In this document: piece after piece, positions 2,962-26,822 of the stretch
How the letters are laid out: each line of letters begins with the position of its first letter
How positions within the stretch are numbered: the stretch's first letter is position 1
NCBI RefSeq assembly: GCF_006175995.1
Contig: NZ_VDMB01000017.1
Coordinates: forward strand, 50,149-82,303
DNA from: Desulfobotulus mexicanus
GTDB lineage: Bacteria > Desulfobacterota > Desulfobacteria > Desulfobacterales > ASO4-4
Length of the DNA stretch: 32,155 nucleotides
Reading direction: 5' to 3'
Notes under the pieces: model-generated
Told to the model about the DNA's origin: nothing
The model's input: only the letters and a program-made list of their open reading frames with translations
Databases searched by the model: none
Position numbers and translations under genes: made by a program

Positions 2962-4809
2962 TCAGAGCCTAAGCTCCGTTTTACCCATCTTTTCCTTGAG
3001 AAAGGGAACATAGGCCATGTCGGTCTTTAAGATATGGGTATTGAGCCAGTCTTTGAGAAAATCCATGAGATCCATGGTGACCGTCGCCTTTCCGCTCTCA
3101 AAATCCTTCTGAATCCCCACAACCCTTGCCACAAGATCCCTGTGAACCTTACTGTGGGACCGGCTTTCCGGGTATCCGTATCTGGCAAAAAGCTCTTCCT
3201 CATAGGCAAAATGGGTTACGGTGTAGTCTGCAAGCTGTTTGAGAATACCTCCCAGCTCAGCGGTCCCCTTTTGAAGCCGCATTGCCTTGTGAAGAAGATT
3301 GATCAGGCGCACAAGTTCTCTGTGCTGGTCATCAATGGTCTTGATGGATGTGGCAAGGCGTGAACTCCATGGCATCAGCTCCGGTATGTCCGACGCCTTC
3401 AGTCCGGAGTCAAGACCTCCGGCCTTCTCTTTATTGGATACCCTGAAAACGGCGATCATTTCCCTGAGATTTGAAGCCAGAAGATCCAGATCCTTTGCGC
3501 TGATACTCATATGGCTGGACCGGCCGGACATTTCTGCGGCCACCGTATCCACGGTTGCAATGTCCCTTGCAATTTCCGATGCCACAAGGGAGCTCTGGGC
3601 AACATTCTCATTCACTTCCCGGATACCGATGGAAGCCTGATCAATGTTTTCAGCCACCTCCGATGCCCTTGATGACTGCTCATCCACGGAAAGAACAATC
3701 TCGTGGACTATCTGATCCACCTGAGAAATCACCTGAGAGATGGTTCCTACCTCCTCTACGGTCTCACGGGTGGATGACTGGATGCCCCCTATCTTTTCAC
3801 GGATAATGCGGGTGGCATCCGCCGTCTGATCCGCCAGCTTCTTGATTTCTCCGGCAACAACGGCAAAGCCCTTGCCGTATTCGCCAGCACGCGCCGCCTC
3901 TATGGTGGCATTGAGGGCCAGAAGATTGGTCTGCTCCGCAATTTCCGTTATCAGCTCCGTTACATTGCCAATTTCCTGAGCCGCTGCACCCAGCGTGCCG
4001 ACCTTATCGGAAACCACATCCACCTGATTTCTGGCCTGGGTCGATATTTCAAGGGCTTCCCTGCAGTTCCCCGCCACTCCTGAAATATTGACCTGCATCT
4101 GGGCAGCGGCTTCTGCCACCATGGCAATATTGGTGGAAGCTTCCTCGCTGGCCGCAGCCACCGTATGCATACTGGTGTTCATTTCTTCTGCTGCCGCAGC
4201 CACGGAATTGGAACGGCGGTGCAGGTCCGATGCCTCCCCCTCCATTTCAGCAGACACCATGGCAACCTCTGAGGATGCAGCAGCAATACTCTGGGTTTTT
4301 CCTCCGACACTCATGATGATTTCATCAAGGGTGGCCACAAAAAGATCAAATCCCGCCGAAAGGCTGCCGATTTCATCCTCTCTCACAAGCCCCATTCGAA
4401 CGGTGAGGTCCCGCTCTTTTCCTTTGATGGCCTTGCGAAGGCTGGCATTCAGTTCTCTGACGGGTGTAAGAAAAATACGATTGAAAAGAAAGCCCATGGC
4501 AAGCATGACAAAGAGCAGGCTGGCTGCAGCAGCAAGAACCATCCGCCCCAGCATCCCGTGGGAAAGGGTATGGGGAATGGCACGGATATCCTTCTGAAGC
4601 CCTTCCAGTAAGGCTCTGGTATCCGCATTCACAGAAACGGAATCCATGGCCTGAACCTGCGCTGCCATGGCTTCGGCAATGCGGGTGCTGTCATGGATCT
4701 GGACACTGCGAAAGGCCCACAGCATAAAAATCAGGGCCAGAATCACCACCAGCAGGAGCGATCCTGCAATTTTAACATCCAGACTTTTTTTAACCAGCGA
4801 TGCAACCAT
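2962..4809 (-). CDS. Methyl-accepting chemotaxis protein with C-terminal bacteriohemerythrin domain
   Basis: This 615-residue chemoreceptor has TM1 at about 13-32, a short periplasmic helix, TM2 near 90-110, a HAMP domain, and then a long coiled-coil signalling domain with the family tip [15 protein letters not shown]. From about residue 478 there is a full hemerythrin four-helix domain. All seven di-iron ligands can be placed: His496, His533, Glu537, His552, His556, His592 and Asp597. Hemerythrin-tailed receptors (the DcrH type) sense O2 or redox, so this one likely steers the cell away from oxygen through CheA/CheW. The start at 4809 has GAGG about 8 nt upstream; an ATG at 4857 with AAGGGA is the alternative. 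No che genes lie nearby. Confidence 0.93.
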
Positions 4810-4938
4810 GAATACCCGCCTCAGACATGAAGGGTTATACAAAAACAGAACCGCCATCGGTCCCTTTGCGAAAAAATCATCCAAACCAACGCCTGCACAG
4901 GTGGCAGAGTGCCTGATACAGGGGGGAGAATATGCTTT

Positions 4939-12402: not shown

Positions 12403-13886
12403 TCCCGCTCTTTTTTATACCTACGCAGGTTCTTTAACTCCAAAGGCTTTAAAGATAGTCATTTGAAGTCTGGTTAATGGAAAAAGGATTTTGGTTCCCT
12501 TGATTTCCTGTCTGCGCAACTTGGATAAAGTCAGAAGCAATTCCTTCATTGTCATTTTGCAATACAGTTTTTCCTGAAGCATCGTGTAGTGGATCTTTGA
12601 CAACAATATGAGTGCCAGGAAACCTACGAAGGTTTTATTCCTGGCATTGTGATTGCTGTGAACCCTTAGTCTGCCAAGATCAAGGTTGTTTTTCATTCGG
12701 TCAAAGCCTTTTTCAACGACATCCTTATCCCGGTAAATCCTGAGGGCTTCTGTCGCTTCTGAGACATCGTTACTGATGAGCACCATCCAGCCAGCATAGC
12801 CGAGGGCTTTTTCGACAGCATCCTCTCTTATGGAGACTGTGTAACCACTGCTCTGTTTTGTGGAACGGCGGATAATCAGATATTTTCTGTATTGAGCATC
12901 CCCGGAAGCCATTACCGGATTCTCCTTTGCAAAATCCCTGAGTCTTGCAGTATAAGAATAAAGATCTTCCCGGATTTTGGCTCCTTTCAGGGCATTATAA
13001 TAAACATGGACATAAATCCGATGCTCCGGATTCCATGCCTGCTCTTTGGTCACTGCCCTTATGGAATCTGAACCTATGACAATTGTGTTTGTGACCCGGT
13101 CAATGTCTTTGCGTTCGCTATCCACACTTTTTTTAGCAATTCCGGTAGTAAAAGGGACTGCTATCAGCCAACGCAAATCGGCTTGTTCCAGCATACTGTT
13201 TACATTCTGTATACTGTAAAAGCCTTTGTCCATTACTAAGCGCAGGGGGCGGTTCTGGGTAAAAATCGCCAACTTGGAAAGAGTTGTCTTCAGAGTACTC
13301 ACATCCTTCAGGCTGCCGCTATAGAATTCCTGGTAAATGGGAAGGTGTGAATTTTCACCCATCAGCAGGCAGAGGTTCACCTGAGGTAATGACTCATGAT
13401 CGCGATTATAGCCCCACTCCACATCATCAATAAGGTTTGAGTATGATGAGATGGAAGTAATATCCAGGGCCAGATACTCTTTTTCTGACCGCAATTTGCA
13501 CCATAACTGATAAAATTGATTCTGCTGATCCGCTGAGATCACTCCCATAAGTTCACTTATCCGCTGAGAAGACATGCTGCCCACAGGCAGGCATTCTGTA
13601 TTTCCGATGAGGCAGCGTTTATTTCTGGATTTTCCCTCACTATTTCGATAGGATTTTGACTCATAAAGATAAGTATGGTTTCCAACTTTTTGCTTCACGA
13701 TGCAAGTCATGCTTCCCCCCTTGTGGTAATATGTTATTATACCTGCAAAGGGTCAAAAAACCAGCTTTTTTAAACTTTTAAAAAATTAATTTTCAACAAA
13801 AATCAAGGGTAATCCTTGGTGTTTCAGGTTCTTACGCAAAATATCAGCACGGCATTAAGCGTTGTAGGTATACAAATCAACAGGGA
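12403..13886 (-). mobile_element. IS1634-like insertion sequence (about 1.48 kb)
   Basis: The element holds one transposase gene. Candidate terminal inverted repeats are imperfect and about 22 bp: the left end reads TCCC...TATACCTAC (12403-12424) and the right end is its approximate reverse complement (13864-13886), with nine identical inner bases. AAT occurs directly outside both ends and may be a short target duplication. The right end puts a TGA into the interrupted PLD/helicase gene. The exact boundaries are uncertain by a few bases. Confidence 0.6.
12421..13710 (-). CDS. IS1634-family DDE transposase, probably internally deleted
   Basis: A 429-residue IS4/IS1634-type transposase. The DDE residues appear as Asp83 (LALDITSIS), Asp161 (LVMDKGFYS) and Glu333 (DVVEKGFDRMK), so the catalytic core is present. 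Family members I recall are about 500-560 residues and carry roughly 100 residues between the KRCLIG-like N-terminal segment and PVGSMSSQRIS. Here these two are almost adjacent (residues 31-48), which suggests an in-frame deletion near position 13600. The stop codon lies within the left inverted repeat. AAGGGGGG precedes the ATG. Activity is doubtful. Confidence 0.85.
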   Translation of the reverse strand: MTCIVKQKVGNHTYLYESKSYRNSEGKSRNKRCLIGNTECLPVGSMSSQRISELMGVISADQQNQFYQLWCKLRSEKEYLALDITSISSYSNLIDDVEWGYNRDHESLPQVNLCLLMGENSHLPIYQEFYSGSLKDVSTLKTTLSKLAIFTQNRPLRLVMDKGFYSIQNVNSMLEQADLRWLIAVPFTTGIAKKSVDSERKDIDRVTNTIVIGSDSIRAVTKEQAWNPEHRIYVHVYYNALKGAKIREDLYSYTARLRDFAKENPVMASGDAQYRKYLIIRRSTKQSSGYTVSIREDAVEKALGYAGWMVLISNDVSEATEALRIYRDKDVVEKGFDRMKNNLDLGRLRVHSNHNARNKTFVGFLALILLSKIHYTMLQEKLYCKMTMKELLLTLSKLRRQEIKGTKILFPLTRLQMTIFKAFGVKEPA

Positions 13887-14677
13887 ATCGAGGTTGTTAC
13901 TTTGAGATTCCACTCTAGGCCGTTTGTTAATGCGGAACGAGAAAGATTGGATGAACCAATATAGCCTGTATCAAAACCGCTTTTTCTATGAAAAAGGTAG
14001 GCTTTGGCATGAAGGCGTTCACGATCCGTGTTGTAACTGAGACGAACTTCTGTATTAGGTAGGCTGGCAAGAAAGTCTACGGCTTTTTGATCCGTTGCCC
14101 CCATATATGAGGTTGTAATGATTCTTATTTTTGTTCCGTTTGAAACAGCTTCTTTAAGAGTATCGGAAAAAATTCTAATGCCAGTCCACTTGATAAATGA
14201 AACCAGCCAGCAGATTTCATCAGAAGATAGAATTTCACGCTTTAACTCAGATTCAAGAGAAATTCCTATATTGCTTCCCGTAAAAAGTTCACTTTGAGTA
14301 AGTCCCGTTTTTGGAGTAATTTTTAATACATGGGATTTTAAATTTGCTGCAATTGGATTAGACGTATCAAAAAGAGCTGTGAGTATTTCTCCTTGTGATG
14401 TCAGAATATTTTCTGAAATTTCAGTATTATTCAAATACTCAGAAAGCCATTTGACCAGTGCATTAGAAAGATCAATTTGTGTTAATACTTTATCTTCATT
14501 GCTGGGCAAATAATCAAAAGCAATCACCAGTACACGGGATAAAAAACGAGATAAGTATTCTGCCGCCTCAGCAGGGTCAAGTTTCTGTTTTTCGATGAAA
14601 TAGGAGCCTTCAAGCTCTGCTAATCGTTTTTGAATTAGGCGCGTGACAAGAGATTCATAAATTCCAGATACTGTCAT
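13877..14677 (-). pseudogene. N-terminal fragment of a PLD-domain/DEAD-helicase-type protein, truncated by IS
   Basis: A 266-codon frame with a helical N-terminus and a phospholipase-D-like domain near residues 130-260 (LHAKAYLF, then IGSSNLS). This layout is typical of the front part of large DUF3427/DEAD-box proteins with an N-terminal PLD nuclease, often found in defence islands, where a helicase of several hundred residues follows. Here the reading frame runs into the IS1634-like end and stops there. No helicase part exists on the other side of the IS, so the rest was lost. AT-rich composition fits an acquired gene. Confidence 0.65.
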
Positions 14678-15293: not shown

Positions 15294-16205
15294 TTAAAAT
15301 GAATACATATTCAAAATAATGGAAGCTCTGGTGATTTCTCCCGCAAGCTTTCCCTTTAGAATCACGGGCAAAAGACCGGTTTCCGAGCGGGACATGAGAA
15401 GCAGGGCATGGCGCAGGCTGTCTTCTGGAGAGACAGAAGGCACCTCCCTGTTCAGCATGGCGGTAACGGGCTGTTCCCATTGCCGGTCCTGGCGGATGGA
15501 GGCAATGGTTTTTTCGGAGATGGTGCCGAGAAATCTGTCTTCATCATCCACCACAGGCAGTGCTGTTTTTCCGGTTTTCTGAAGACTGTCCGCCGCCTGC
15601 CGGACGGTATTTCCGGCTAAGAGTTTTTCCGGTACAGGACTCATGAGGTGACGCACGGAGGTTTCCTCCACCTTTGTGCTTTGAATACAGTCCAGAACCT
15701 GCTGATGAACGCTTTCAAGAGAGCCCTTCAGTATGGCCGAACCTGCTCCGGGATGTCCGCCGCCGCCCAGTCTTCGCATCATGGCACCCAGATCCAGCTC
15801 CCTTGCGCTGCTGCGTGCAATCACGGCCATTTTTTCAGGCCCCATGGGAAAGATGCCGAAGGCCGCATCCAGCCCCTGAATCTCTTTGAACTGATGCACC
15901 ACTGTCGGCAGCATGGTCAGCCCCTTTTCCACTTCAAGGGAAGAGATCCCTATTTTCAGGCTTCCCAGGGCAAAGGTTCGGGCTTCGCCCAGCATACGCT
16001 GGAAAAGAGCCATGTGCCGTTCATCCAGCGCACTGTCCTGATAGGCGGCCACCACATGGAGGTCGGCCCCGTTTTCCTGCATGAAGCCCACCATGTGCAC
16101 ATCTCTGGCTGTAGTTTGTGGGTTTTTATATGTTGATGCAGTTTCTTTGTTTTTTTTAGCAGGCGTTTTCTTAAACCTTGCAGCATTGGAAAACCGGTCC
16201 GACAA
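15294..16205 (-). CDS. DHHA1 plus tandem CBS domain protein, lacking a DHH half and a clear start
   Basis: This frame encodes the C-terminal DHHA1 substrate domain of a DHH phosphoesterase (GGGGHPGAGSA near residue 147), then two CBS domains (about 175-303). The relatives I recall carry a full DHH catalytic half before DHHA1, and often a CCA-adding-enzyme module after the CBS pair; both are absent. Homology seems to begin at TTARDV near residue 32, preceded by a Lys-rich linker. The only upstream initiator is TTG at 16205 without a ribosome site; an ATG at 16094 is also weak. The frame continues upstream, in phase, into the TAG that ends the hydrogenase/MCP gene. CBS pairs usually bind adenosine nucleotides. 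It may be a remnant. Confidence 0.65.
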   Translation of the reverse strand: MSDRFSNAARFKKTPAKKNKETASTYKNPQTTARDVHMVGFMQENGADLHVVAAYQDSALDERHMALFQRMLGEARTFALGSLKIGISSLEVEKGLTMLPTVVHQFKEIQGLDAAFGIFPMGPEKMAVIARSSARELDLGAMMRRLGGGGHPGAGSAILKGSLESVHQQVLDCIQSTKVEETSVRHLMSPVPEKLLAGNTVRQAADSLQKTGKTALPVVDDEDRFLGTISEKTIASIRQDRQWEQPVTAMLNREVPSVSPEDSLRHALLLMSRSETGLLPVILKGKLAGEITRASIILNMYSF

Positions 16206-16217
16206 GTCTTTGGGCAG

Positions 16218-18221
16218 CTATGATGATCGGAGAAGCATTTCCAGCTCATCCTCTTCCATACCAGCCACTTCCCTGGCCATGTTTTTGGCAAGATCCTTGG
16301 TTTCATTGATTTTTTCGTCGGCCTCTTTTATGCCTTCAGAAACATTCCCCAGATTGGCTGCCACATCCCCCGTTACAGCCGCCTGTTCTTCAATGGCTGA
16401 GGCGATGCCCAGAACCGTTTCATTGATGATATGGACAATTCCTGCAATTTTTTCCATGTCATTAATGGCATGGCCCGAAGATGTCTGAACGCTGCTGATC
16501 CTTTCCTTGATATCTTCTGTGGCAGTGGCTGTCTGTCTGGCAAGACCTTTGATTTCATCTGCAACCACGGCAAAGCCTTTGCCTGCCTCACCGGCCCTTG
16601 CTGCTTCTATGGTGGCGTTCAGGGCCAGCAGATTGATCTGGGCTGAGATATCCGTAATGGTTTCTGTGAATTTACCTATTTCCTGCGATGCCGTGCCCAG
16701 TTGTTGCATCATTTTTGAAATGGATGCCACCTGATTTTCTGCATCATGGGCAGTGCCGCGGGCTTTTTCCGAACTTCTGGCAATTTCAGTGATGGTGGCA
16801 CTCATCTCTTCCGTTGCACCCGCCACAGATGAAAGGTTTTCCGATGCACGGTCCATGATTCCGGCCACCTGGCCTGTGTCCTTAACCATGGTTATGGCAA
16901 TCTCCTTTGCCCTTTTCTCCAGCTCTGCCTTCAGATGATAATGGCAGTTTTCCGGTCTGTTCAGGCCATTTTGAAGGGCAACGGCCATGGCATGGCAGGA
17001 CTTGTAACCGCAGGAGTTGCAGTTGTACATGTCTTTGGTGCTGTGTTTGCCCATGCTGGCGTAGGCATCCTTGAGTTTTGCATCGGGGATGTTGAATTCA
17101 AAGGAGTGGCTTTTGCTCCTGTCTTCATATTTTCTGTCATAAAGGCCTTTTTTCCAGTAGCGGTTCAAAAGGGTTTCCAAATTTTTTCTGGTCCGGTCAT
17201 CCGCTCGAAAACCCTGCTTTTTATACTGTTCCTTCATTTTTCGGCTGCGGGCCTCCACAAGGGATTCAATCTCATCGGGATGCATGCTTTTACCCAGAGT
17301 TGCAGTCCCTCCATTGCAGCCGGTATCGCAGTTCAGGCAGTCGATGAGCAGTGGAGCTTTACCGGAAGCAATCATGGGAGCAAGGCCTTCAAGGTAGTGA
17401 TAGACAACATGGGGCCCTTCTATTTTGCGGGCTGCGGAAGCAATGCCCGGTTTCCAGCGTTCAGCCGTTCGGAGAAGGCCGCCGGGTGTGGAAAAGAGGA
17501 CGGCCCGCTCTGCGGGCGGATTGTCGTATTCCAGGGCAGGAAAGGAGGCAAGGGAAATTCTGTTCTTCTGGAGATAATCCGCAATGGAGGAGAAGGTAAC
17601 ATTGTAATCCCCAAGACCCGTTGCATGGAATTCCCGTTTTTTTGCCCAACAGGGAGAAATGACAGCAAATTTTGCGCCTCTGTATTCGGGATAGAATTCC
17701 TGCACCATTTTTATGGTATGCAGCATGGGGCTGTGGGCCGGAGCGAGATAAGGCAGCAGTTCCGGATGGTATATTTCAATGAAGGAAACAATGGCAGGGC
17801 AGGGCTGGGCAATGACGGCCTTTGGGCTTTTAGCTTCAATATGTTCAAGGTAGCTGCGTATGGTGAGTTCCGCCCCGAAGCTGACATCGAAAAAGGCCTG
17901 AACACCGAGGGATTTAAGCCATCCGTTGAGGTTCAGATATTGCTCAGGAAAATTGGAGGCCACACCGGGGGCTACAATGGCAACGGTCTTTTCTCTGCGG
18001 GAAAGGGCCTCCATAAAAGGCTTAAAATCATCGATTCCATGGCGGGCATCGTGGGTGCAGGCAGTAAGGCACTGCCCGCATCCGATGCACAGATCCTGAA
18101 TGCATGCCACATGGTCGCCGCTGGCATCATTGCAGTAATATACGGGACAGACATAAACGCAGGCATGACAGTTCACGCATTTTTCACTGTCAACCTCAAT
18201 GATAGCAGGCAGTTTTTTCAT
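16218..18221 (-). CDS. Sensory [FeFe]-hydrogenase-like protein fused to a chemoreceptor signalling domain
   Basis: A 667-residue soluble fusion. Residues 15-55 hold two 4Fe-4S motifs ([22 protein letters not shown]). Residues 75-310 are an [FeFe]-hydrogenase H-cluster domain: Cys141 (AQPCPA), Cys191 (SPCWAKK), and Cys298 and Cys302 (CDTGC) match the four cluster ligands. The Cys used for proton transfer in catalytic enzymes is Pro140 here, as expected for a sensor rather than a turnover enzyme. A further 4Fe-4S domain follows at 401-426 (CNSCGYKSC...C). From 430 on there is an MCP coiled coil with tip [13 protein letters not shown] and no transmembrane helix. It probably reports H2 or redox state to CheA. 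AGGGAG precedes the ATG at 18221. Confidence 0.88.
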
Positions 18222-18562
18222 AACAGCTCCCTTGTGGGCTTTGGTTTTTTTTAAATGAATCAGGTGCTTGAGAAGCAAGTACAAGGTGGTGGATCAGGCT
18301 GATATTCACTATCTACAGAGATAATATCCTGTGTTTGAAGGCAAAAGGCAAAGGCTTTCTGGTGATGCCGTGTTTTGTGGTGAACACCGTTATTTTGGCT
18401 GATACAGTGACGGGCTGTTTCAGAATATGCTTTCTGGTGTATAAAGCAGTTCCGCCTGTTTTTTATCTGAAAACGCATGTTTTTATTCAAAGACGGCAAA
18501 AAACGTCTTGATGCTTAAATGCTATGGCCTTATATTTTTGTCAAACGAATGGAGGTGCACCT
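18222..18562. other. Divergent intergenic region
   Basis: This 341-nt gap separates the divergently transcribed hydrogenase/MCP and antitoxin genes, so both promoters should lie here. I see an 11-bp direct repeat GCTTTCTGGTG (18354-18364 and 18429-18439) and a 6-bp stem with an A-rich loop (18490-18509) shortly upstream of the antitoxin. Neither can be assigned to a known regulator. Confidence 0.4.
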
Positions 18563-20990: not shown

Positions 20991-22724
20991 TCAGTCAATA
21001 TAGAAAAGGATGTCCTCCAGTGCCATGCGGATGTCTTCCGCATCGTCCATGCGTTTTTCTTTGACGGCCTGGCGCAGGTCTTCCATGAGATTGATGATCT
21101 CATCCTTGTCTTCTTCGGCGGCCCGGTCCAGCTTTGACTTTGCATCTTCAAGGATTTCCTGGATGTCTGAAGGCAGGTCCGGGGCCTCTTCTTCCATTGT
21201 TTCCTGATCAGGACTTTCTTCTTCTCCCCAGAGGGTTTCCATGCGCTCACGGGAGCCGGCAATACTCAGCGCATCCTGGGAAAAGGCGTTTTCAATGACC
21301 GCCTCAAGGGAGTGGCCCGTAGCTTTTTCCTCTGCCCTGATCTTAAGGATGCCGTTCACATCCAGATCATAGCGGAAAATGATGGGAGCCTGCTCTTCCT
21401 GGGGGGTCAGTTCAAACATGTATTTTCCAATCAGTGTGTTTTCAGTGGCATCACTGTTTTCGCCCTGATAAACAAGGATTTCAATCTGCTTCTGATAAGG
21501 AACGACGGTAGTGAAAACATCGCTGCGGGAGGCGGGGAGCTTGGTGTTGCGGCGGATCAGGGGCACATAGCAGTATTCATATAATTCACCATCTCTATAT
21601 CCAAGGCTTGAAGTGCCAAAGGTATAGGGCGTGATGTCAATGAGGACGGTACTGGTTTCAATGCCCATTTCCCGGCCAGCCTGAATACCTGCGCCCAAGG
21701 CCACGCATAGATCCGGATCCACCTCGGAGTGGGGCAGGTGACCAAGCCTTTCCTCAAGGAGTCTGGAGATCATGGGAATGCGGGTGGACCCGCCCACAAG
21801 GAGGATTTTGTCCAGATCCGATGCCAGAATGCCCGCATCGTTTAAAGCCCTGCTAACCGCCTCCATGGTGCGTTCAATATCTTCCCGTATCATATCCTCA
21901 AAGTCCATCCGGGCCAGCTCATGGGTGAAGTGGATGGGCGTATCTTCCTTCTGGATAAGATGATCAAGGCTTATTTTTGTGTAGGGGGCTGTGGAAAGGG
22001 CGATTTTTGCTTCTTCCGCTGCCCTGAGCAGCCGGGCTGTGGCCTGGGGAATCCCTTCTACATCGGCCTCCTGCTCTTCTTTCAGCACTTCGGCCAGATG
22101 GGCTGCGAGTTTTCTGTCAAAATCATCACCACCCAGGAAGTTGTCCCCTGTGCTGGCCATAACCTCCACTACGCCATTTTCTATGTGCACAACGGAGACA
22201 TCAAAGGTGCCGCCCCCAAGGTCAAAGACCAGCACCTTACGGCTTTCTCCATCTCCCTGTTCATAGGCCAGCGCTGCTGCTGTGGGCTCGTTGATGATGC
22301 GTACCACCTCAAGGCCTGCAATTTCTCCGGCTTCCTTGGTGGCCTGACGCTGGCTGTCCGTGAAATATGCGGGTACGGTGATGACGGCTTTTCGGATGGG
22401 CTTTTGGAGTTCCTTTTCCGCCCTTTGTTTCAGGTGGCGAAGAATTGCCGCAGAGATTTCCTGGGGCCGGAATTCCTTGTCGCCCATGCTGACTTTTTTA
22501 TCAGACCCCATGAGGCGTTTCACCGAGGCCACGGTTTTTTCCGGAGCCACAAGCATCTGGTTTCTGGCTTCCATGCCCACGAGAAGACTTTCCGAGCGGT
22601 CCAGACCCACAACGGAGGGCAGAATGCCGTTGTCATTATCTGTGAGGATGATGGGTTTTCCGTCTTTAATAATGGAGACAACGGAGTTGGTGGTGCCAAG
22701 GTCGATGCCGATAATGGTTTCCAT
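20991..22724 (-). CDS. Hsp70-family chaperone (second DnaK-like protein)
   Basis: A 577-residue Hsp70. The ATPase domain is complete: phosphate 1 [12 protein letters not shown] (residue 4 on), phosphate 2 [12 protein letters not shown] near 168, and the adenosine motif [11 protein letters not shown] near 309. A substrate-binding beta-domain follows (about 360-490, including [15 protein letters not shown]). The lid is short, very acidic ([10 protein letters not shown]) and ends without the DnaK EEVD-like tail. It is shorter than DnaK (about 635), so it is an alternative Hsp70. AAGGA lies 9 nt before the ATG. The gene follows the GrpE-like gene by 40 nt, which points to a dedicated chaperone set. 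Confidence 0.92.
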
Positions 22725-22764
22725 GGGTACAAATCCTTAGGGGTTGAAGTAGTACGATACTTTT

Positions 22765-23685
22765 TTATTCACTCACAATGACATCCGCATAGCGCAGCAC
22801 CGCATCTTTACGGATATAAGCGCTGGACAGGGTGCGTATGACTTTGCCGGAAGGAATATTTTCGCTGGCTTCCACATGGATGGCCTTCATCCATCTGGGA
22901 TCAAAGTCTTTCCCGTCCGTTTCAATGGCCCGGATGCCTGCTGTGGCAAAGGCCGCATCCAGGCGTTGCAGGGTAAGGGTGTAGCCTTCCTGCATGGCTG
23001 AAATGGCATTGGAACTGGAAGACCTGAAAAAGCGGAAGCCTTTTCTTTGGGGTGCCTTTGCCGCTTCCAGGCCCCTTAGAAGGGCATCCCGAACATCAAG
23101 AAAGGGTCGGATGGCATTTTGTTCCGCAGCGTCTCTGATGCGGACTTCCAGCTCCACCAGACTGGCGGTGCGGGACCGGAAAAGTTCTGCCGCATCATTA
23201 TGGTCGTCCATGAACTGCTGCAGGGTTTTGATGGCCCGGACCTGCTCCCTGTTCTGCATACGGATTTCCTGGCGCAGGCCTGAGAATTCGGAAAGAAGGG
23301 TGTAAAGATCGCAGCTTTCCATGCCTGCACCTTCAGAAGGCGGGGTGTCCGGCAGATCTTTGAGCCAGGTCTCAAAATCTTCAAGACTGCTTTTTTTCCA
23401 GTCTGTCAGGGGTGTATCTTTTTCTGACTTTTCCTGAACTTTTTGATTCAGTAGATGTGCAAGCCACTTAAGAAAGGGTAGGTAGCATTTTCTGTCCATC
23501 CAGAGGATAAGATTTTTCATGCGCCCATAGAGCCATGTGGCAAATATCTTAAGCTGGTCCCATATCCACAGGGTAAATATTTTCATTCGTCCGTATGACC
23601 AGATGGCAAATATTTTCCCTTGGCCGTATATCCAGATGAAAAGCCTGCGGATGAGCTGAAACAGGCTGAGAAGCAGTTTTTTCAT
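22765..23685 (-). CDS. GrpE-like nucleotide exchange factor with N-terminal 11-residue repeat array
   Basis: A 306-residue protein. The C-terminal ~55 residues match the GrpE beta-domain (FDPRWMKAIHVE, SGKVIRTLSSAYIRKDAVLRYA). The middle is a long helix as in the GrpE dimer stalk (about 110-245). The N-terminus (1-66) is unlike GrpE: Trp recurs at 18, 29, 40, 51 and 62 and Lys at 24, 35, 46 and 57, in units like IWSYGRMKIFT. That 11-residue period suits a long amphipathic helix lying on a membrane. The ATG overlaps the TGA of the J-like gene (ATGA), so translation is coupled. Its likely job is ADP release from the neighbouring Hsp70 at the membrane. Confidence 0.8.
   Translation of the reverse strand: MKKLLLSLFQLIRRLFIWIYGQGKIFAIWSYGRMKIFTLWIWDQLKIFATWLYGRMKNLILWMDRKCYLPFLKWLAHLLNQKVQEKSEKDTPLTDWKKSSLEDFETWLKDLPDTPPSEGAGMESCDLYTLLSEFSGLRQEIRMQNREQVRAIKTLQQFMDDHNDAAELFRSRTASLVELEVRIRDAAEQNAIRPFLDVRDALLRGLEAAKAPQRKGFRFFRSSSSNAISAMQEGYTLTLQRLDAAFATAGIRAIETDGKDFDPRWMKAIHVEASENIPSGKVIRTLSSAYIRKDAVLRYADVIVSE
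23488..23637 (-). repeat. 33-bp tandem repeat coding for 11-residue units
   Basis: About four and a half 33-bp units lie inside the GrpE-like gene, visible as recurring GGCAAATATTTT and CCATATCCA/CGTATGACC blocks. Units differ at many third positions, so this is an old expanded repeat under coding constraint rather than a recent slippage product. No unit is broken. Confidence 0.8.
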
Positions 23686-24023
23686 TTAGCTTTCCCCCAA
23701 TCTCTTACAGCACGCCCTGCCGGTCCCTTGCCCCTTTCCGCAGCAAGAATTTCTTTCAGAGTGGGTCTGCGGCGCTCAAGGCTGATTTCTCCTGTGATGA
23801 AATCCAGCCCCATATCTCCATCCCTGAATTTATAGCTTCCGAAAAGGCGGTTGTGTATGCGGCTTCTCTGGTCCTTGATACTGTCGTAGGATTCAGAGAA
23901 AATGCGGAAACGATCAGGATCTTTTTCCGGAGTATGCTCCCGTATTTTTTCAAGATAAGCTTTTCGGATTTCCTGATCCGAAGCCGATTCCGTGACTCCG
24001 AGTATGCGGTAATTTGTAAACAT
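23682..24023 (-). CDS. J-domain-like co-chaperone with HTP in place of HPD
   Basis: A 113-residue protein whose first ~62 residues follow the J-domain pattern: NYRILGVTESASDQEIRKAY for helices I-II and FRIFSESYDSIKD for helix III. In the loop, the HPD tripeptide needed to stimulate Hsp70 ATPase reads His30-Thr31-Pro32 (HTPEKDP). The C-terminal half is basic and ends GRAVRDWGKAK, without a zinc or client domain. GGGAG lies 7 nt before the ATG. The stop overlaps the GrpE-like start by 4 nt. Either the variant loop works with this particular Hsp70 or the protein has become a structural adaptor. Confidence 0.8.
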   Translation of the reverse strand: MFTNYRILGVTESASDQEIRKAYLEKIREHTPEKDPDRFRIFSESYDSIKDQRSRIHNRLFGSYKFRDGDMGLDFITGEISLERRRPTLKEILAAERGKGPAGRAVRDWGKAK

Positions 24024-24047
24024 GGTGCACTCCCTGGCACTGGGCCA

Positions 24048-26822
24048 TTATCGAAAGAGTATTTTTGCATGGGCAGAAGAAAAACCGGCCCGTACTTCAG
24101 GGGAAAGATTCTGGATCAAAGCCTTCATGTTGTGGAAACTTCTGTGGCCTGAGTCTTCAAAAAGGGAGTAAAACATTTCTTTGATAAGGGCCGTAGGAGC
24201 TCCGGTCTTCAGAATGATGTCCAGCAGGGCTTTAACGGCTTTGGCAAAGGATTTTTGTTCTTCGATGCTGAAGGGACGACCCTTTGCACCGTACATATGG
24301 TACATGCCGGTCAAGGTGAGCAGATGCTGAATGATTTGCTGACCAAAGATGTCCATAGGATTTGTAAAGAATGGGTCGTTATCGGGATTGGGCATATTTT
24401 TTCCAAAAGGAGGCATCGGCTCAGGATAGTCAAAGAGATCATCGTCATCATCGTCGTCATAATAGTCGTCATCATCTCTAAGGAAGAACATATTCTCATT
24501 AAAATCAAGAGCTTTAAATCTTTTCTGTAGATATTCAGGTACAAAGTCTGCCAGTGTGCGGGCGATCTTGCGGACCCTTTCCTTATCCTCTGCATCTACT
24601 TTTTCCATCTGAGCCTCAAGGGAAAAGAAATTGAATCTTCCACCGCTGGAGATGCCCTTAAGAATTTCCTGTATGATTATGAAAAGAGCCCTTCTGGAGG
24701 GAGTTTTCACCTTTCTGACGCGGAGGGCACTTTCATTTTTAAAAAGATTCAATGTTTTTTTATTCTTCTGCCAAGACAGTACCAGACAAAAATCTTCATC
24801 TGAAAGCCTGTTAATAATATTGATTTTTTCCGTAAGCAAAAAGTCCATGGGGCTGCGCTTGTGGTTGCGGTAGAGGACGGCTTCTTCTTCGGGAAAATCA
24901 CTGAGCAAAAGGAGCATCTCCTTTTGGGGCAGGGCTTCAGGAGCCTTTAATTCTTCAAGGATGATTTTTTTGAGCTGTTTTGAAGTAGTGGACCTGTTTG
25001 CACCAATGCCCTCACTCTCCCTGTCCAGATAAAAAAAGGCCATGATTTTCAGCTTCATCACCTTTGGAAAGCTCTGAAGCACTGAGGTCAGCCTGTCTTC
25101 AAGGGTTTTTTCCGGCTCAAGGATTTCGAGAATCCGCAGGCGGATGAGGGCTGCATGGGGATTGATGGAAGATAGTTTTAGTGCCTCTGTCTGTTTCAGA
25201 TCTTCAAGGGCCAGCTCCACCTTCTTTCTGCCAAGGCTTCTTTTGGCGGATACCAGAAGGGAAATGGCATAGCGCAGATTTACCTTGGGATCGTGGGGAG
25301 CCCGTTTTCTGGCTTCCAGCATGGCGGATTCCGCCTTTCGGTGGGCGCCCTTCAGATCGTAGAGGGTGGCAAGTTCCAGGCAGGGGAAGGGGTCTTTGGG
25401 AAAAAGCTCCTGCATCTTTATAAAAAGGGGTTCAAGCTGCCTGCGCATCTCAGCACTTTTCCGGATGATTTCACTGACCCTGAGCATCTCCCAGGCATCC
25501 CGGTTTTTAGGATCCCACTCCAGCGCTTTGGCAAGGATGGCAATGCGAAAAATTTCCATATCGTCTGAATCTTCATCACTAACGGAAAGATTTTCTATGT
25601 CGCTGAGGGCATCGTATAGATCGAAAATGACTTCTTCTTCATCCAGACTGGCAGATCGTGTGAGTATCCAGATGAGGATCATGCCCCTTGCCATATTTGC
25701 TTCTTCGGAATCTGTAAAAATTTTAGAACATAATGGGATAAGATCTGGAAGAATGGCATCCATATCCCAATTCAGGTAGAGTCCGATTTTTAATAAAGAA
25801 AATAAAGCCGTCTCATGGGGCAGATGTTTCTTTAACCCATCCTTGATGACCGTTAAAATTTTTGGATTCTGGTCGTAGCTACGCATGGTCTCAAAGATAT
25901 CCGTCAAAAGCTCTTTTTTATGGTCCAGGTCAAGACTTACGGCCAGATCCATGGCTGCGGCGGGAATACTTTTCCATTTCCGGTAATCCTTTACCGTCTC
26001 CTTCAATTGCTGAAGAGAGATGGCCTTTTTGGGCAGGGCTTGCCGGAAAACAGCAGCCTGGGCAGGGGGCATGGCTTTGTATTCGCCATCTTTATTTTCG
26101 GCCTCAGCCCGCAGTGCTGCCAGAGTATCGGGCAGGGGAAAGTCATCGGGCAGGGCGGAAAGGGCCCTTAAGATGCCCCGGCTGTCATCTTTAAGAAAGG
26201 CGCACATGGCCGTACAGAAAATGCGCACAGGAGCAAAGGGAGACTCTTTGGGGACACTTCGTAAAAGCGAAAGGGCATCTTCCCAGGCTCCGGTATTCAT
26301 TTTTTCAATGGCAGGCATCATGCCTTCTGCCTCATTGCGTAGGGCCGAGCCGGGGGGGAGGGTATCCAGCAGATTCCATCCGGATTCAGCAAAAAGGCGC
26401 ATACAGAGGATGGGGGTGATCGCTTCCTGTTCCGGGCTGTTTTCGGCAAAAGTTTTAAAGCAGGCCATGAGGGTGCCAAGGGGAAGATAGTCTGCCATGA
26501 GACGGAGATCTTCTTTTTGAAGGGCAGGCATGGTTTTAAGGTAATCGACAGCCATGTTAGCCATGGCATCTCCTTCCGTTTCCATGGCTTTGGCGTAAAG
26601 CTGTCTGGCCCGGTGCAGGGAGGCCCTAAAAAACCTGGGAGCCAGTTCGGATTCCTTAATACCGGATTTTCGTGCCTGTTTCAGAAGGGCCAGGGTGTCC
26701 CGGTACTTTTCCTTGGTCATGGCAGCGTCCGCATCACCAAGGAGCTTTTCAGGGCTTGCAGCGGCAGAATCTTTGAAAGAAGCCGTTCCGGTTTTTTTGT
26801 TTTTTTTCTGTTTTTTTGTCAT
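24048..26822 (-). CDS. Large helical-repeat (TPR-like) protein of the chaperone cluster
   Basis: A 924-residue, mostly helical protein with no catalytic motif I recognise. The N-terminus is highly basic (MTKKQKKNKKTG). TPR-like helices occur at about 30-80 and most clearly near 430-560 (FPCLELATLYDLKGAHRKAESAMLEARKRAP). Residues 783-802 form an acidic tract of Asp with Tyr, followed by a Pro/Met/Asn-rich linker and a helical C-terminal domain of about 110 residues. No signal peptide or membrane segment is seen. The gene is 24 nt upstream of the J-like gene, so it heads the Hsp70 operon. It probably acts as a scaffold or client adaptor, but this is inference. The ribosome site is weak (GGGGAT). 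Confidence 0.75.
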   Translation of the reverse strand: MTKKQKKNKKTGTASFKDSAAASPEKLLGDADAAMTKEKYRDTLALLKQARKSGIKESELAPRFFRASLHRARQLYAKAMETEGDAMANMAVDYLKTMPALQKEDLRLMADYLPLGTLMACFKTFAENSPEQEAITPILCMRLFAESGWNLLDTLPPGSALRNEAEGMMPAIEKMNTGAWEDALSLLRSVPKESPFAPVRIFCTAMCAFLKDDSRGILRALSALPDDFPLPDTLAALRAEAENKDGEYKAMPPAQAAVFRQALPKKAISLQQLKETVKDYRKWKSIPAAAMDLAVSLDLDHKKELLTDIFETMRSYDQNPKILTVIKDGLKKHLPHETALFSLLKIGLYLNWDMDAILPDLIPLCSKIFTDSEEANMARGMILIWILTRSASLDEEEVIFDLYDALSDIENLSVSDEDSDDMEIFRIAILAKALEWDPKNRDAWEMLRVSEIIRKSAEMRRQLEPLFIKMQELFPKDPFPCLELATLYDLKGAHRKAESAMLEARKRAPHDPKVNLRYAISLLVSAKRSLGRKKVELALEDLKQTEALKLSSINPHAALIRLRILEILEPEKTLEDRLTSVLQSFPKVMKLKIMAFFYLDRESEGIGANRSTTSKQLKKIILEELKAPEALPQKEMLLLLSDFPEEEAVLYRNHKRSPMDFLLTEKINIINRLSDEDFCLVLSWQKNKKTLNLFKNESALRVRKVKTPSRRALFIIIQEILKGISSGGRFNFFSLEAQMEKVDAEDKERVRKIARTLADFVPEYLQKRFKALDFNENMFFLRDDDDYYDDDDDDDLFDYPEPMPPFGKNMPNPDNDPFFTNPMDIFGQQIIQHLLTLTGMYHMYGAKGRPFSIEEQKSFAKAVKALLDIILKTGAPTALIKEMFYSLFEDSGHRSFHNMKALIQNLSPEVRAGFSSAHAKILFR

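Follow-up and report, generated by a model that had tools for sequence, protein, structure and literature searches.

A putative hydrogen- or redox-sensing chemoreceptor with an [FeFe]-hydrogenase domain in Desulfobotulus mexicanus, a host without detected H-cluster maturases

The window analysed here, a stretch of 32,155 nucleotides from Desulfobotulus mexicanus, carries a gene for what is probably a cytoplasmic, MCP-linked receptor of the sensory [FeFe]-hydrogenase type, with a putative H2 or redox input and a CheA output. The receptor is real, conserved and of an already named kind, the C2 type of HydDB. The surprise lies in the host genus: a named kind of putative hydrogen sensor occurs in Desulfobotulus, where the usual cofactor-building genes were not found.

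The receptor gene lies on the minus strand (18221..16218) as a single open frame of 667 amino acids from an ATG at 18221, and an alternative TTG start at 18284 would give 688 codons; frame 1 of the plus strand over 16218-18221 is interrupted by stops. The first-pass annotation had the coordinates and the 667-residue length right, and the strand is minus. The gene is intact, since its frame is uninterrupted and dN/dS against the D. alkaliphilus copy is 0.098 over 667 codons (0.075 in the H-domain, 0.109 in the MCP part). Its features, in 667-residue numbering, are as follows.

16218..18221, minus strand: hydrogenase-MCP receptor gene; open frame, 91% identity to the D. alkaliphilus copy (L108) across the whole protein
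18057..18179, minus strand: two ferredoxin-type 4Fe-4S motifs, C15/C18/C21/C25 and C45/C48/C51/C55; Fer4 in two stretches, cysteines invariant in the alignments
17307..17990, minus strand: H-domain (Fe_hyd_lg_C, PF02906), residues 78-305; Pfam E 2.8e-28 and fold match
17796..17807, minus strand: motif L1, Q139-P140-C141-P142, with P140 in place of CpI C299 and C141 as CpI C300; alignment
17631..17657, minus strand: motif L2, S189-P-C191..K194..E197, with S189 in place of CpI M353; alignment
17307..17339, minus strand: motif L3, C295-L-N-C298-D-T-G-C302-N-G-G, with L296 in place of CpI M497; alignment
16944..17021, minus strand: C-terminal 4Fe-4S site, C401-x2-C404-x4-C409-x16-C426; PF04060 above cut-off
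16263..16943, minus strand: MCP signalling hairpin, helix 427-542, turn 543, helix 544-653; PF00015 and AlphaFold2 secondary structure
16560..16637, minus strand: hairpin tip, residues 529-554; pattern search
16794..16823, minus strand: methylation-site-like stretch, residues 467-476; pattern search

A Pfam scan of the 688-residue form (subtract 21 for the numbering above) placed Fe_hyd_lg_C at 99-326 (E 2.8e-28), PF04060 at 420-448, MCPsignal at 504-668 (E 2.1e-31) and Fer4 in two stretches, every match exceeding its own cut-off. The two ferredoxin motifs, the third 4Fe-4S domain and the MCP hairpin that had been read from the bare sequence are thereby confirmed. The same scan gave no PAS domain at E 0.001, and no PAS, HAMP or membrane part was found between the iron-sulfur sites and the hairpin. 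Hydropathy gives no sign of a membrane helix, the highest 19-residue mean being 1.69 within the coiled coil, which agrees with the earlier view of a soluble protein. We take the hairpin tip to be the expected contact for CheA and CheW, and the methylation-site-like stretch is a putative site.

The structure prediction that the first-pass annotation had asked for bears out the hydrogenase fold. An AlphaFold2 model, built from 47 sequences (the window protein and 46 of its best 80 relatives), has a mean pLDDT of 85.6, and the 17 best VIA-align rows are all solved [FeFe] hydrogenases (Z 34.0-35.6, rmsd 2.6-3.2, 342-368 residues aligned). This fold match covers the first 370-420 residues, and the search barely probes the hairpin. 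In the model, C426, the last cysteine of the C-terminal cluster, directly precedes a 116-residue signalling helix.

Relatives of the receptor were collected by a genome-contig scan with an alignment of five orthologues. It returned 193, of which the best 80 were kept; these include Spirochaetota, Bacteroidota, Acidobacteriota, Planctomycetota, Fibrobacterota, Riflebacteria and Desulfobacterota, mostly as metagenome bins. Desulfobotulus alkaliphilus comes closest, with 94% over the query part; its two records (G027 and G626) show matches in identical places and were taken as one genome and counted once. MCPsignal is present in 62 of these best 80 (33/40 and 29/40 in the two halves), and from domain tallies and lengths the rest have PAS, SpoIIE-type phosphatase or histidine-kinase outputs, or none. 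A survey of the class at E 1e-30 found matches in 7 of 389 genomes. In five of these, counting that of the window, the match is an MCP fusion; in the other two (L030 and L031, matched by the H-domain search) it is a kinase fusion. Not every Desulfobotulus genome carries the receptor, for G024, the third of the genus, gave no orthologue at E 1e-30.

A tree of 89 rows gathers the 80 family rows in a single group, separate both from the kinase fusions and from the group A, group B and PAS-type enzymes of the host; within it the window and D. alkaliphilus receptors are sisters. The tree was made by a quick method, with L003 on a long branch and L098 left out as a near copy of L097, and we use it only for the coherence of this 80-row clade.

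The four H-cluster ligands that had been noted, C141, C191, C298 and C302, are present and are invariant in all 81 aligned members (the window protein and the best 80 of 193 relatives), as is the lysine at CpI K358; with its ligands complete, the domain does not belong among the ligandless paralogues that had been considered as an alternative placement. An extra cysteine, C295 in motif L3, is likewise invariant in the alignments made. Group A residues C299, E282, S319, M353 and M497 are not kept (P, S, A, S and L in the window protein), the CpI positions being assigned from the usual spacing of the motifs in the group A protein of the host, with E279 falling in a gap and left unused and E282 the least sure. 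The CpI C299 column is Pro in 80/81 and Ala in one, the M353 column Ser in 79/81 and the M497 column Leu in all 81. The replacement of the proton-transfer cysteine by Pro140 is thus genuine and, judged by the alignment, is a mark of the family, not a defect of the window copy, because 80 of 81 members share it. Among sensory sequences in HydDB, the available part of a paper on TmHydS gives for position C299 a share of 17% (which we read as Cys), with Ala at ~43%, Pro at ~10% and Ser at ~10% (PMC10055695).

Two marks of sensory groups C and D are present, namely the loss of C299 and the C-terminal Cx2Cx4Cx16C site (C401/404/409/426), a 4Fe-4S spacing quoted for sensory groups in the portion available of PMC8163306. 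According to the accessible text of the two sources, the group C enzyme TmHydS of Thermotoga maritima resembles the receptor in its two N-terminal and one C-terminal 4Fe-4S sites, its lost C299 and its changed M353 and M497 (PMC8163306, PMC10055695); it differs in having a PAS domain and Ala, Gly and Ser at C299, M353 and M497, where the receptor has no PAS and carries Pro, Ser and Leu. The group D enzyme TamHydS of Thermoanaerobacter mathranii, as far as PMC8163306 was available, carries the clusters seen here and, again as here, Ser in place of M353 and Leu in place of M497; it differs in having Ala at C299 and no PAS domain, and no MCP part is mentioned. Group D conserves a proton path through E252 and E289, and where TamHydS has E252 the receptor apparently has Leu249. 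The presumed column of E252, CpI V423, is Leu in 81/81. Membership of group D on the strength of the Ser/Leu pair was therefore not adopted.

The first-pass annotation had named sensory [FeFe] hydrogenases with PAS or kinase outputs as known; it missed the MCP-linked type, which in the part of the 2016 HydDB paper at hand is already group C2, 'Chemotactic (putative)', its role given there as undetermined and the group as one that may sense H2 and act via methyl-accepting chemotaxis proteins (PMC5037454). Like that group, our receptor joins an [FeFe] hydrogenase to a methyl-accepting chemotaxis output (MCPsignal, E 2.1e-31), a combination shared by the 62 MCP-bearing relatives; the likeness is to the published description of C2, and the host here differs in having no detectable maturases. 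A later survey of acetogens found C2 matches and then discarded them in its checks (PMC9431212). The accessible text of a 2022 review names PAS-based sensing and does not contain 'chemotaxis', 'methyl-accepting', 'MCP' or 'chemotactic' (PMC8924675). In the literature searched, with most subscription papers outside its scope, we recognised no demonstrated tactic response to H2 through an [FeFe] sensor.

The design has a counterpart in other soluble receptors. In energy sensors of the Aer2/TlpD type, too, a domain that senses redox state or a gas controls an MCP hairpin in the cytoplasm; in them it is a haem-PAS, FAD-PAS or zinc domain and here an H-cluster domain.

Coupling of the receptor to CheA, as predicted, is well supported. 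A CheA dimerisation domain was found in 51 of 56 genomes tested, and CheA matches occur within the fetched flanks of 8 of 80 loci (L045, L047, L056, L085, L092, L097, L098 and L101), that in L047 by tblastn only. At L045, in Candidatus Rifleibacterium, the genes run as a CheY-like receiver, CheA, the receptor, CheW, CheB and CheR, with ends that adjoin or overlap. Of the 50 named hosts among these genomes, 41 have an MCP output and nine another one; CheA was found in 40 of the former and 5 of the latter (Fisher p 0.0025). The test is not independent because the nine non-MCP hosts all sit in one clade, so that kinship may explain the difference. The single MCP-output host without CheA, L097, has a CheA-like match at its own locus.

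The window's own genome holds seven CheA-type matches, six at E 1e-5 or better. One lies with CheW, CheB and CheR matches on a single contig (L137), where an apparent CheY match coincides with the receiver part of CheB and was not counted as a CheY gene; a second contig (L138) carries CheR, CheA, a CheY-like receiver and CheB; and at L136 a CheA/CheW pair lies beside receptors with tips up to 71% identical to that of the window receptor. Within the window itself, no che or hyd maturation genes were seen beside the receptor gene. The search for CheA and CheW that had been proposed thus succeeded, and the wiring of a soluble MCP-type receptor to CheA is borne out both by these matches and by relatives inside or beside che clusters. 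In the two Desulfoluna relatives, L049 and L077, the tip lacks the usual QTN and reads DNLTLLALNAK or DNLSLLALNAK; CheA coupling may differ there because that QTN is lost.

The MCP part could instead drive a non-flagellar chemosensory system, acting on pili, cyclic-di-GMP or gene regulation and not on swimming, and we regard this as possible, if the lesser expectation. Several chemosensory pathways may exist in the host, given its seven CheA-type matches with six at E 1e-5 or better, and in the window the receptor gene is linked to no CheA pathway. Sister groups with kinase and phosphatase outputs are also listed in the available part of the HydDB paper (PMC5037454). On the other side, the tip and the methylation-like site look ordinary, and the che row of L045 includes CheR and CheB. 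A chemotactic output remains our preferred reading.

An association of the family at large with H-cluster maturation is supported. HydF was found in 44 of 56 host genomes tested, with at most 27 candidates per genome scored, which is 44 of 52 outside Desulfobotulus (the 56 less four Desulfobotulus records from three genomes). The eight misses outside the genus are metagenome bins, and in one of them (G612, locus L079) the receptor gene is immediately followed by hydG and hydE. The background in the phylum is 19 of 198 genomes (at most 8 candidates per genome scored), a rough comparison only, as the genome mix differs. Maturase genes lie near the receptor relative in 3 of 80 loci: besides L079, there is L062, where a family member with an output other than MCP is flanked by hydE, hydF and hydG, and a hydE-like match lies ~3.4 kb downstream of the relative at L064.

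Desulfobotulus departs from this pattern. HydE, HydF and HydG were each searched for in the window's genome and gave no match above the cut-off; in each of these searches one of 14 control genomes passed, for HydF that of Thermotoga maritima. The HydF candidates score 92 bits or less, where the cut-off is 325.55, and match in the GTPase part only. A HydG candidate on contig C33, at 198 bits below its cut-off and beside ThiG-like and ThiF-like genes, was read as ThiH from its sequence, and the HydE candidates on C3 (33 bits) are two adjacent radical-SAM proteins that look MqnC/MqnE-like by eye. The other two Desulfobotulus genomes gave no HydF and no HydG above the cut-off; three genomes of the genus of G292 do have HydG above it. 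In 40 relative genomes, the window's own included, HydF was not found at E 1e-60, and only the three Desulfobotulus genomes among these 40 hold a group A hydrogenase at E 1e-30 (at most 36 candidates per genome scored). Because the group A, phylum HydF and host HydF surveys scored at most 36, 8 and 27 candidates per genome, rare misses are possible in each.

The first-pass annotation had taken HydEFG to be necessary in the genome and their absence to speak against it. No match at the cut-off is what we found for all three, so on its own terms the interpretation fails at this point for the window's genome; the soluble, CheA-wired receptor and the link to maturation at the level of the family stand.

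An alternative that builds on these missing genes holds that the Desulfobotulus receptor is a redox (energy-taxis) sensor without a working diiron site, whose cubane-type clusters, with the cubane half of the H-cluster among them, would respond to the ferredoxin or cytoplasmic potential and not to H2. In its favour, searches of the genome gave no HydE, HydF or HydG, and the sister genomes yield no HydF and no HydG above the cut-off, where 44 of 52 other hosts have HydF. Also in its favour are two substitutions shared by the two Desulfobotulus proteins: K28 (Lys in 79/79 others) is changed to Y and D163 (Asp in 76/79 others) to H. We nevertheless think it rather unlikely. The H-cluster ligands and K358 are kept, and the pocket, as far as sequence can tell, shows no decay, since the H-domain has a dN/dS of 0.075 and only I22V, K28Y and D163H change a position that is at least 90% conserved in the 79 others. 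Moreover, the genus keeps a group A hydrogenase with the motifs TSCCPSW, MPCTSKKFE and EVMACRGGC and a dN/dS of 0.048 and 0.054 in two comparisons (0.059 and 0.084 for group B); such strong selection on group A argues that the H-cluster is made in Desulfobotulus.

The genes seen do not account for its assembly: HydF and HydG were detected in none of the three genomes, and HydE not in the window's own, the one searched for it. Either the maturases were missed in three drafts, or they are too divergent for recognition, or another route exists. For an assembly gap to be the cause, three drafts of 97-98% completeness would all have to be hit. A precedent of a kind comes from diplomonads: in the part of PMC11437800 available, Giardia species are reported without maturases, the hydrogenase being kept by implication. 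As a tentative proposal, either an unknown bacterial pathway supplies Desulfobotulus with H-clusters in place of HydE, HydF and HydG, or cubane clusters alone serve both a chemoreceptor of hydrogenase shape and a whole set of hydrogenases. The genus is in either event a place to seek another route to the H-cluster or a hydrogenase domain used as a redox gauge only.

That the fusion is an evolutionary relic which no longer senses anything is very improbable: its downstream neighbour is truncated, a transposase gene lies nearby and its occurrence is sporadic, both in the class (7/389 genomes at E 1e-30, two of them with kinase fusions) and in the genus (absent at E 1e-30 from one of three genomes), but the uninterrupted frame, the 91% identity in D. 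alkaliphilus and a dN/dS of 0.098 show selection that contradicts it.

For the receptor as a CheA-coupled H2 or redox sensor, we envisage the following working. It would act as a dimer in a receptor array, its H-domain equilibrating with H2 or with the low-potential electron pool of the cell, a process presumably slowed by the loss of the group A proton path. Electrons from the H-domain would spread over the accessory clusters, and the C-terminal cluster, with C426 as last ligand, may alter the packing of the signalling helix, which begins one residue further on. This change would travel to the hairpin tip and modify CheA activity, with adaptation by CheR and CheB at the putative methylation site. 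The output would most likely be movement along H2 or redox gradients. An H2 signal is plausible, being likely for the family at large and uncertain for Desulfobotulus; we count against the working set out here that the authors of PMC13104023, in the portion available, describe earlier signalling ideas as challenged. Two systems offer themselves for testing, the receptor within the che gene row of L045 and the receptor followed by hydG and hydE at L079.

Elsewhere in the host genome, a group A hydrogenase gene lies behind NuoE- and NuoF-like genes, as read from the sequence (L130, 10006-14526), and a PAS-type sensory hydrogenase has a SpoIIE-like phosphatase and a small protein resembling NuoE as neighbours (L132, 5259-8586); no maturase was recognised near either.

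In the window, the downstream neighbour of the receptor gene (15294-16205, minus strand) encodes a DHHA1-CBS protein; set against the 428-residue D. alkaliphilus copy (L108, 8154-9437), its first 153 residues are missing, and the longer copy is similar to the first half of an A-adding tRNA nucleotidyltransferase. At 12421-14677 (minus), a DDE transposase adjoins a 266-residue PLD-domain fragment with 96% identity to the opening part of a 1056-residue D. alkaliphilus protein, as if an insertion had cut the PLD-domain gene. A row at 20991-26822 (minus) encodes a DnaK-like protein, a small protein that reads as J-domain-like and a 924-residue protein without an NCBIfam match. A further MCP at 2962-4884 (minus) has a C-terminal hemerythrin domain and a weak HAMP match and is perhaps an oxygen-sensing receptor.
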